From Polychytrium aggregatum (lineage: Eukaryota > Chytridiomycota > Chytridiomycetes > Polychytriales): a DNA stretch of 64,000 nt. Positions 34,513-38,783 of the stretch are shown one piece after another; within the stretch, counting starts at the first letter, position 1; each line of letters opens with the position of its first letter. The stretch is taken from contig NW_026516239.1 of the NCBI RefSeq assembly GCF_025602895.1, positions 251,001 to 315,000 of the forward strand, given 5' to 3'. The notes under the pieces were generated by a model, which worked only from the letters and a program-made list of their open reading frames with translations, searched no databases and was not told the DNA's origin. A program made the translations under genes and the position numbers.

Positions 34513-37500
34513 TCAAGGGTCGGAAATACGAGCCAGCACCTCGGTGTCCAACGAAGCCATCGTGAGCGCCGCCACCGTGGCCTGGTCACGGATCTCGCCC
34601 TCTCGGATCAGATACCCGATTTCTCCGTAGGGCAGCCAGAGGACGCCGTTGTCCTGCTTTGCGGCCGCGGTGGCCGCAGTGGCCGTCGCTGCTCCAGCCT
34701 GGTCGTCTGTTTCGGGACGCTCGATCGCGCACACGTCGAGGGCAGCGTAGAACAGCGTCTTGGCGTCCGACACCTGGTTGTTGGTCCACAAATCGGCGCT
34801 CTCCTTGGACAGGCGTACGAGTTGTTGGCGCTCAGCACCGAGCGAGGCGCTGCGAGCAAGCTCTTGGGAGATCTGTGTCTCGACGTCACCCGAGACATCG
34901 ATCTCGCCGCGCGGGCACTCGAGCGACCAGCCCTGGACGGCATAATGGTACTTGCGAACAAGCCCAATCAGCCCGTCGCCTCGGACGGCGACGATGACGG
35001 CCTGCACTCGCTCGGGAGCGTGCGCCACGACCGGCACGACGAACTCGTCGTTGTGTTCGTGGATGTTGCGGATCCGATCAAGACGGAGCGCCACACCGCC
35101 GCTGCCTTGGTTGTCGAACAGGACCTGTTGCTCAACGCACTCGACTGGCTGCGCCACTCCGGCCACCGAGAGCATTGGGTTGTCGATGCGCATCATCGGG
35201 ATGAGCGAGGGAAAGTCCAGGTTGGGGATGTCGTAGAGCGGCAGGACCGGAACCGACTGGTTGATGACAAAGACAATCTTGCGGACAAGGCTCAGGTCCG
35301 GCTCCAACTTTTTCTCAAAGTTGACCCAGTCGAGGCTGAAGAGCGGACGAGCGTCGACGCGCTCGATCTTGGATTGAATGGACTCGTAGAGCCCTCTGGC
35401 GGCCTCGTGCAGGGTTGTATAGTCCATCTGTGTTCCGCGCCGCAGGCCGCCCAGATGCCGGCGGAACTCTTTGGCCTGGCGGGTCGACCGCACCTGCAGA
35501 ATGTCGGCCACGCTCAGTCGCCCGAGCTCAAAGACGCGGATCGGACCAACCGAGAGATGGTCGAGGAACTGGAACGTGGTGTCGGTGCTGTTGTTGAGGG
35601 ATGCTTTCAGAGTCTCGATCAGCGACAGGTCCTCTTGGTCGACGCAGAGCGTGCATGCAAATGTGATCGGCAGGTTGAGCACGTACGGCGCATCGGCAAT
35701 GCGCTTCATGGTGTCGGCATAAACCCATCGCCGCTCGATAAACTTGGTTCGCACCCGCAGCAGATTCTCGCGCTCCGAGTCGCTGCATTTGGCCAACAGT
35801 GCGGCATACTTGGTCTTGAAGCCCTCGTTCGAGAGCGGGTCGATAAACAGGTTGCCAAAGTCGTAGATTTGCGAGCGCGTCAGGTATCCCTGCGACAGAC
35901 ACAGGCCCACAAAGGTCTTCATCGATGCAAAGATGTCGTACTGGACCGCGGCAGTCTCGATCTCAACGTCCCGTCCGCTCCGCGAGGCTGTGCCGTGGCC
36001 GTGCGACGATTCGACCGGCGTGTCGGCATGCGGCGACAGTCTGCCACTGCCGGGGTCGGGCGAGAGCGGCCTGTCCTCTGGGTGGACGCCGTGGCGCTCC
36101 AGGGTCGCTCGGGCCTCCGTGACGCCGTTGTTGATCAGGTCCTGCATTCGGCTGGCGTATGTCCCCGAGATGTCTTTGAAGTCGTACCAAAAGATCAGCT
36201 CGGGATGCGCTTGGTAGTACTCGTCGATGCGCTCGATCGCCCACTCGGGGATGATCTCGCTCAGATAGCCCGGATTGTTGACCTGACAGTCGCGGCGGTA
36301 GGTCAGCAGCGGCGTCGAGGACCCTTGAATATCGATCAGCTTGTTCGCACCGTCGATCTTGACGCTCTGGGAACGCGGCAGCATTGGGCGGATGTAGTGC
36401 AGGTACTCGTGGTTGAGCTCCTCGCCCGAGTCATTCACGAGGACCTCGAGGACAAACACGCGCGAGTTGAGCAGGAAGTTGCCGGCAATCGCCACACGGT
36501 CGCCCGTGATCAGGGCTCGGTGCAGATGGGCACGCAGAAGCAGGCGCATGGGCACACCCGACGACAGCGCCGCAACGTTGTCAAAGGCCGGCAGGAACAG
36601 GAGCGTCTCGTCCGCCAGCCCGGCGGTGCTGGGCAGCAGTTCGCCGTGCTCGGCGCCGGTCTTGGACGGATGGGCGAGATCCGCAGCTTCGGAATGGATC
36701 GCGGCGCTCTTGAGCTTGTCTTTGCGAGACTGGAGGATTTCCTCGGACAGCTTCATGCCGTGGACGTTTCCGCACAAATAGGCGACGTTCTGCGTGGGTT
36801 CCCAGGGACAGAGATCCAGGCCATTAGTATCTCTCAGAACCTGGGTGGCTTTCGTGCGGCGCTGCAGTCTCCCTGGATCAGTGCATCTTCCCATTCACGA
36901 CCGACAGTCAGCAGGCAGTCACGTCCCGGACAGTAGTGTCCGGCGCAAGCCCTGTGTTTTTGCCTCGAGCTCAGACGTACCTGTGCATCCTCGAACACAA
37001 TCATGGCCAGGTTGCTTTCTCCAACCGACTCAAGGACCACGCCGTAAATGATCAACAGAAAGCACGAGTCGATAAAATAGCGCGAATCCGGAAAGTTTTC
37101 CTGGCGCAGCTGGATGGCCCTGAGGATCATCTGGAGGGCCTTGGTTACATCGCCCTGCTCCAGCTGTTCGATCGTGAGCTGCGCGAGCTTGATGAGCTCG
37201 GTTTGGTTGCGCAAGAACCGCTGGATGTGCTCGTCCACGAGATTGCCCTCGATGATGGACTCGGAAACCTTGACTTGGTCAAATTCCTTGTCGAGCTTGG
37301 CCTCGGTATAGAACGAAAAGGAGGAGATGTTCTCGAGAAAGGCCAGAGCGCTGTTGGACTTTGTGAGCCCGCCGACTGCAGGGTTTGCAGCTGCCAGGAT
37401 GCTCGACGGAGTGAGGCAGGCATAGAGATGGGGTGCCAGGCCCGCGAGCTTGGCGAGATCAAAGAGTACCAAGCGACTCCGCAACGGACCAATCTTTTCG

Positions 37501-38783
37501 GCTGCCCAGGCAGCAAGCTTGCCCGTGATGGTCTCGTTTGGGGCAAACTTGCCGTTGATCTGGCCCTGGCGAACCTGGAAGTGATCTCCAAGCTTCTTGC
37601 GGAAGGCCTCGAAGAAGGGCGGCTCGACATCCTCGCGAATGACCCAGAGGACGTCGGCGACATCAGCCTCGGAAATCATGCGGATATAGTCTGGGTACTC
37701 GGCAAGATCGGCGCCGCTGAAGCCGAGGAAGGTCATGGTGAACTTGCGCAGGAGCAGCGACAAGACACTGGTGACGTACGAGGACAGGCCTGTGGGGATG
37801 GACCAGGTACAAGGAGTTAGAGCGTGGGGGGGGGAATCCATGAAACGGACAGCGCGCGCAAAGGACAAGAGCGAACATGTGCATGTCGGAACTGGAATTG
37901 GGATTGGAGGCAGAGGTGTCCATGGTCCAACTGAGGCGACAGTGCAATCTCATTGACATTGCGGAGAGGAGAGAGAGAGCGCTTCTCGCTGCTTACCTTG
38001 GATGCGCTGCGATTCGGTGTCAATACAGGTCTGCGGCGCGTAGCAGTCGCCGTGGATCTTGAACAGGAACGACATCGAGTCGGACCCGAGCGACACCGTA
38101 AAGTATCGCATGAACAGCTGGAAGCTGTCGGGGTTCGCGACGACCAGGAGCACCCGCCGATGGCCAAAGCTCTTGCGGAGGCGCTCGAGGGCCCGCTTGT
38201 CATGGGCAAGATCGCCCGTGAGGGTGTAGACATCGCCGCCCAAGGCCCGGTAGGCAGATTCAACGGCGTCGTCAAAGTTGGTGGTCACAACCGCCGGAAC
38301 AGCGCCCTCGAACAGCTCTGACGCAATCCAGGTGTGCACGGGGTTGGGCGGGGCGTCTTGAAAGACCTCGACGACCGACAGATAGTGCGAGCCCAGGCGC
38401 CGCGCCATGACCTCGGTAGCTTTGTACGGCGGCAACACCGACTCGTTCAAGCAGCCGTGAAGGCGGGTGACCAGCTCGGCGACCTTGCGCTGCTGTCGCT
38501 GCTTGGCGCGGGACTGCGAGGCCTGGGCCCGGGAGTTGCCGTTGTTGCCGCTGTTGCCGGGGTCGGAGTCTTCGGAGTTTGTGGCCTCGGCCAGGGACTG
38601 GACGACCTGCTTGATGAACGTCAGCCAGGTGGGCAGCGACGTCGGCGCAAAGATGGAGACGGCGGAGCCGAGAAAGTAGACCGGACTGGTGTTTGGGTTG
38701 GCCTTGACTGCCTCGATGGCCGCCAGCGCCGACTCTGACAGGGGCGGGGCAGTTGGCACCTTGGGCGATGGATTTGGGGACAT
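34513..38783 (-). CDS. SIR2-like NAD-processing domain fused to a degenerate Nudix domain
   Basis: Three exons (38783-37997, 37789-36981, 36861-34513) join in phase (1, then 0) to 1314 aa. Residues 33-263 match the SIR2-like fold: VYFLGSAVSIF in place of the GAGxS loop, TTNFDDAVE (Asn169, Asp171) and KIHGD (His244), so the residues expected for NAD cleavage are kept. Residues ~264-1100 are unassigned, partly helical (LAQLTIEQLEQGDVTKALQM), with a Ser/Gly-rich linker near GSGRLSPHADTP. Residues ~1130-1250 look like Nudix, with RKYHYAVQGWSLECPRGEID as in ADP-ribose pyrophosphatases. The Nudix box (from Gly1184) keeps Gly and one Glu but reads QELARSASL where REUxEExGU is expected, so hydrolysis is doubtful. 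It lacks sirtuin zinc cysteines. Role inferred: NAD+ depletion or sensing of an NAD product. Confidence 0.8.

Follow-up and report, generated by a model that had tools for sequence, protein, structure and literature searches.

A SIR2_2-type protein with a Nudix-like tail in the chytrid Polychytrium aggregatum, a candidate gated NAD+ hydrolase

NAD+ hydrolases (NADases) of the SIR2_2 family act as effectors in the defence of bacteria against phages and have recently been found in vertebrates, where the family comprises FAM118A and FAM118B; the latter forms filaments, has fewer than 375 residues and lacks both repeats and a Nudix-like tail. In the bacterial Thoeris protein ThsA, the C-terminus is a SLOG domain that does the regulating. 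Nudix domains bind or cleave ADP-ribose-type products. Domains derived from Nudix enzymes also occur inside larger proteins, as described in the available passages for the NUDT9-H domain of TRPM2 and the Nudix homology domain of CCAR2, which have a degenerate Nudix box and bind ADP-ribose or NAD+. A gene of the chytrid Polychytrium aggregatum, BJ171DRAFT_601543, lies on the minus strand of a stretch of 64,000 nucleotides (the window) and encodes a SIR2_2-type protein varied by a Nudix-like tail, an architecture known from this one species.

The reading to which a probability of about one half is given is that of a single-gene gated NAD+ hydrolase of SIR2_2 type, in which the tail, a dead Nudix-like domain, serves as an NAD+- or ADP-ribose-binding regulator as in TRPM2 and CCAR2. 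By analogy, a gated working mode like that of ThsA or DSR2 is most likely. The N-terminal SIR2 domain, when active, would convert NAD+ to nicotinamide and ADP-ribose, and helices resembling tetratricopeptide repeats (TPR), together with the middle region, would keep it inactive or take in a trigger. The C-terminal domain, a putative descendant of ADP-ribose pyrophosphatase-type Nudix enzymes that has lost its metal-binding residues, would regulate the SIR2 domain by binding NAD+, ADP-ribose or a similar signal, the regulatory job that SLOG has in ThsA. We infer the NADase activity, its gating and its ligand, as well as a role in defence or self-recognition. If true, a fungal SIR2_2 protein that carries a degenerate ADP-ribose-type domain of its own would suggest that self-contained switches gated by NAD+ are made by eukaryotes. 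It would also offer a testable example of an enzyme domain that has become the sensor of what its partner domain produces. The features of the gene are as follows, with residues numbered along a model of 1290 amino acids.

37997-38783, minus strand: exon 1, residues 1-262 plus one base, with most of the SIR2 domain (N169 at 38277-38279, H244 at 38052-38054)
37790-37996, minus strand: intron 1, GT-AG, with CTAAC 31 nucleotides before its 3' end
36981-37789, minus strand: exon 2, remainder of the SIR2 domain, including the GFSGADL motif, followed by a helical region
36790-36980, minus strand: intron 2 of the public model (36862-36980 in the original prediction)
34513-36789, minus strand: exon 3, last TPR-like helices, middle region, Nudix-like C-terminus and stop
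37551-38738, minus strand: SIR2-like domain, residues 16-342, spanning intron 1 (Pfam profile, structure model)
36697-37238, minus strand: tentative TPR-like helical repeats, residues 447-563, spanning intron 2 (structure model of middling confidence)
35971-36123, minus strand: low-complexity, linker-like stretch, residues 755-805 (sequence judged by eye)
34681-35073, minus strand: Nudix-like region resembling ADP-ribose pyrophosphatases, approximately residues 1105-1235 (profile and sequence matches)
34834-34908, minus strand: degenerate Nudix box, residues 1160-1184 (GX5G, QELARS)

The membership of the N-terminal domain in SIR2_2 is solid. Indeed, the Pfam family SIR2_2 (PF13289) matches with an E-value of 8e-9 and 36.2 bits against a gathering cut-off of 24.5, and a confident structure model, searched with Foldseek, has the sirtuin Rossmann fold and matches SPARSA, ThsA, KomC, DSR2 and FAM118B. 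By sequence as by fold, SIR2_2 entries such as ThsA and KomC give the best matches (E 1.4e-16 for the top SIR2_2 entry), and deacetylases match the SIR2 profile more weakly (from E 3.9e-7). The residues N169, D171 and H244, which the original prediction had described as intact, are indeed so and are invariant in 26 of 26 rows of an alignment with SIR2 relatives (A2), and N169 and H244 align with the catalytic N112 and H152 of ThsA. Residues 1-345 have cysteines only at positions 111, 247 and 253 and no CXXC motif, and thus no zinc cysteines. The earlier proposal of a SIR2-like NADase-type domain within a single eukaryotic gene is therefore backed by family, fold and catalytic residues, with the activity itself predicted. 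Weaker signals come from PADLOC, in which four entries match the SIR2 part (4.8e-5 at best), and from PHROGs, with two N-terminal matches to families without an assigned function (best E 0.013).

The nearest SIR2 relatives found are bacterial SIR2 proteins, 18-31% identical, many of them with TPR. They share with the chytrid protein the motifs PTSLPxW, TTNFD, HG, IDTxxQR and GFSGADL, and often the TPR after SIR2, whereas no sign of the Nudix-like tail was found in them: none of the 25 relatives has a Pfam NUDIX match, and their score against a Nudix profile is at most 0.2 bits, compared with 16.2 for the tail. A2 covers 14 of 21 bacterial loci, leaving out L012 (a duplicate of L011), L013 (translated in a wrong frame) and the short matches L017-L021, and a further alignment (A3) covers 12 loci; all 26 rows of A2 match the PADLOC candidate PDC-S65 at E ≤0.001. 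In the SIR2 tree of 26 rows, in which no other eukaryote was knowingly included, the chytrid protein sits on an end branch of 4.65 and in no starred group, a placement that speaks neither for nor against an origin by transfer. ThsA, for its part, shares the catalytic Asn and His but differs in its C-terminal SLOG, for which the chytrid protein has no Pfam match, its middle region offering no relatives on which to build a profile.

As judged from its sequence, the tail probably has Nudix ancestry. The signal lies at residues ~1111-1193, where the NudE model matches with E 0.0032 and 17 bits, and the PDB entry 2yvm also matches the tail, with E 0.31. The best single protein in a set of 22 Nudix sequences reaches 17.2 bits against the tail (E 3.4e-6; best of 500 shuffles 8.2), a profile of the 22 scores the cut tail at 16.2 bits, with 9.2 as the highest value among 2000 shuffles, and the exon-3 frame comes first of the 1323 open frames in the window and the 21 bacterial loci (L001-L021), with 12.2 bits against 4.7 for the next. 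These 22 of the 23 frames found at 47 loci were picked out with the NudE and NUDIX models and then filtered by box pattern, so that the tail tests share an origin and are not independent; the set holds only canonical-type boxes, with divergent Nudix proteins outside it.

In the Nudix box, GEIDVSGDVETQISQELARSASL, the first Gly (G1160) and the first Glu of REUXEE (E1175) are kept, but the canonical GX5EX7REUXEEXGU pattern is broken, with Gly1166 in place of the GX5E Glu, Gln1174 in place of the Arg, and Arg-Ser at 1178-1179 in place of EE (QELARS, 1174-1179). The original prediction did not mention this break in the box. With these four residues replaced, hydrolase activity of the tail is unlikely, so that of the two activities named there for Nudix domains, binding or cleaving ADP-ribose-type products, cleaving is improbable here. 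A two-step device, in which ADP-ribose from the SIR2 domain is split into AMP and ribose phosphate by the Nudix domain through other acidic residues, could draw on the retained E1175 and on E1161, D1163 and D1167 nearby; the substitutions listed above speak against it, as does the inactivity of NUDT9 mutants whose box reads RILGEE or REFGKK, reported in the available part of the source (PMC6461439), and it is considered very unlikely. A regulator that binds without cleaving would be closer to TRPM2 and CCAR2, whose binding domains are likewise Nudix-derived; in the passages available, the partner there is a channel or a nuclear multidomain protein rather than SIR2, and other box residues have been lost.

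Several results weigh against the gated-hydrolase reading. In the SIR2 part, the Foldseek TM-scores are low, at 0.19-0.33 by query length for the rows listed, as obtained from gapped whole-length alignments. In the tail, the 17 bits of the NudE match stand against a cut-off of 169, the score of the 22-sequence profile falls from 16.2 bits for the cut tail to only 10.7 for the whole protein, Pfam NUDIX (PF00293) has no match even up to E 10, and the sole structure model, from a single sequence, has a pLDDT (predicted local distance difference test) of 33. Moreover, the box Arg is Gln1174 here, whereas CCAR2, according to the passages available, keeps the box Arg credited with binding. The missing Pfam match, the poor tail model and an aligned stretch of only ~70-85 residues would also fit a SIR2_2 NADase without Nudix, in which the tail resembles Nudix over a short stretch by chance, and binding of the trigger falls to the middle or the repeats. 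This is unlikely, as the NudE model, one PDB sequence and the 22-sequence profile converge on one place, their shared origin notwithstanding, and the tail scores higher than all 2000 shuffles and all 1322 other open frames. The structure prediction proposed earlier has yielded the SIR2 fold for the N-terminal part; the Nudix-like C-terminus stands by sequence, weakly but above all controls, and its box is broken.

The joining of both parts in one protein is observed in the gene model. The exons 38783-37997 and 37789-36981 and the remainder to 34513 form one in-phase reading frame with no internal stop, as originally predicted, but the predicted length of 1314 amino acids differs from that of the public counterpart, which has 1290 and is labelled 'uncharacterized protein'. 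The spliced window equals this counterpart letter for letter when exon 3 begins at 36789 and not at 36861; the public acceptor of intron 2 lies 72 nucleotides further on, and the longer model contains an additional 24 residues following residue 532. A CTAAT branch-like motif precedes the intron end by 38 nucleotides at the public acceptor, while CTGAT at 20 and CTGAC at 50 nucleotides precede the other one. The public model, known from genomic sequence, is preferred, and its numbering is adopted because the acceptor at 36789 has the better branch-like motif. Intron 1 is supported since the conserved SIR2 sequence continues across it. The gene is real, and it is annotated but unnamed in the public record; no paper dealing with it turned up. 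Bacterial contamination is ruled out by the introns, the eukaryote-type neighbours and the public fungal model on a 443-kb contig. An open frame of 836 codons (34426-36936, plus strand) runs antisense to exon 3, and the family matches found are on the minus strand.

A search of ~5.8 billion proteins returned the public entry as the sole whole-protein relative, with none outside the species (7992 candidates scored), and the middle and tail have no relative beyond it up to E 10 (7993 candidates scored). No other protein with SIR2 and Nudix was found in the searches. In agreement with the earlier claim that no such family has been described, no title in a full-text literature search names this architecture, and the related passages retrieved are silent on it. 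For a mobile acquisition no sign was found: plasmids gave no match at E 1, and none of 41 stretches from viral contigs is a relative. In its own genome the gene matches only its own three exons (2 candidates scored), and a SIR2_2 family search there gave no match and missed the gene itself, probably because the intron splits the domain, so that further SIR2_2 genes could have been missed likewise. A haplotype-specific insertion was rejected: most Nudix loci are repeated in the assembly and the gene is single, but no second long copy of its flanks is listed among the candidates scored (40 of 846 and 40 of 331).

The lack of a second copy and the ordinary surroundings (6 of 10 frames) would also suit a SIR2-fold NAD+-dependent protein ADP-ribosyltransferase or NAD+ sensor acting in fungal signalling or metabolism without a defence role, and protein ADP-ribosylation is described for the SirTM sirtuins of fungi and bacteria in the part of the source available (PMC12700824). 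The stronger matches to SIR2_2 than to deacetylases, in a comparison that did not include SirTM itself, and the want of whole-protein relatives outside the species, ill-suited to a conserved housekeeping gene, make this improbable.

Of the middle of ~850 residues that had been left unassigned, residues ~447-563 are modelled as helical repeats after the SIR2 domain, tentatively TPR-like, while residues ~564-1030 are still without a match.

Among the ten neighbouring frames scanned, six match Pfam families: one frame each for a tyrosine phosphatase and a bestrophin, two for a kinase, of which one also has Sel1 repeats, and two for a ubiquitin-hydrolase-like protein. None of the ten has a TIR match, and the neighbourhood gives no sign of a defence island. 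Elsewhere in the genome there are 16 TIR_2 matches, 9 of them over the cut-off and several being duplicate copies or having an internal stop, and 6 NB-ARC matches; P. aggregatum may thus hold an NAD-based immune repertoire, without a link to the SIR2-Nudix gene. A fungal one-protein counterpart of Thoeris, in which TIR enzymes elsewhere in the genome would make an ADP-ribose-type signal and the dead Nudix pocket, replacing SLOG, would receive it and switch on NAD+ destruction by SIR2, is quite unlikely. TIR and NB-ARC matches lie within 3.3 kb of each other on opposite strands of one contig (C46:286122-289401; L082, L086). In the parts of the sources available, a 2014 survey finds no NOD-like receptors (NLRs) in chytrids (PMC4986451), and a 2022 paper says that TIR has been reported in NLRs of Chytridiomycota (PMC9815663).

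Within the window, the overlapping frames with kinase parts and Sel1 repeats at 17516-21242 on the plus strand are probably one spliced gene. A short dispersed repeat at 29934-30205 has 40 further genome stretches listed at 79-96% identity (40 of 846 candidates scored), and an 85-base piece just upstream of the gene start (39194-39278) probably belongs to the same family, because hits of the two coincide in part on contigs C379 and C124, among others.
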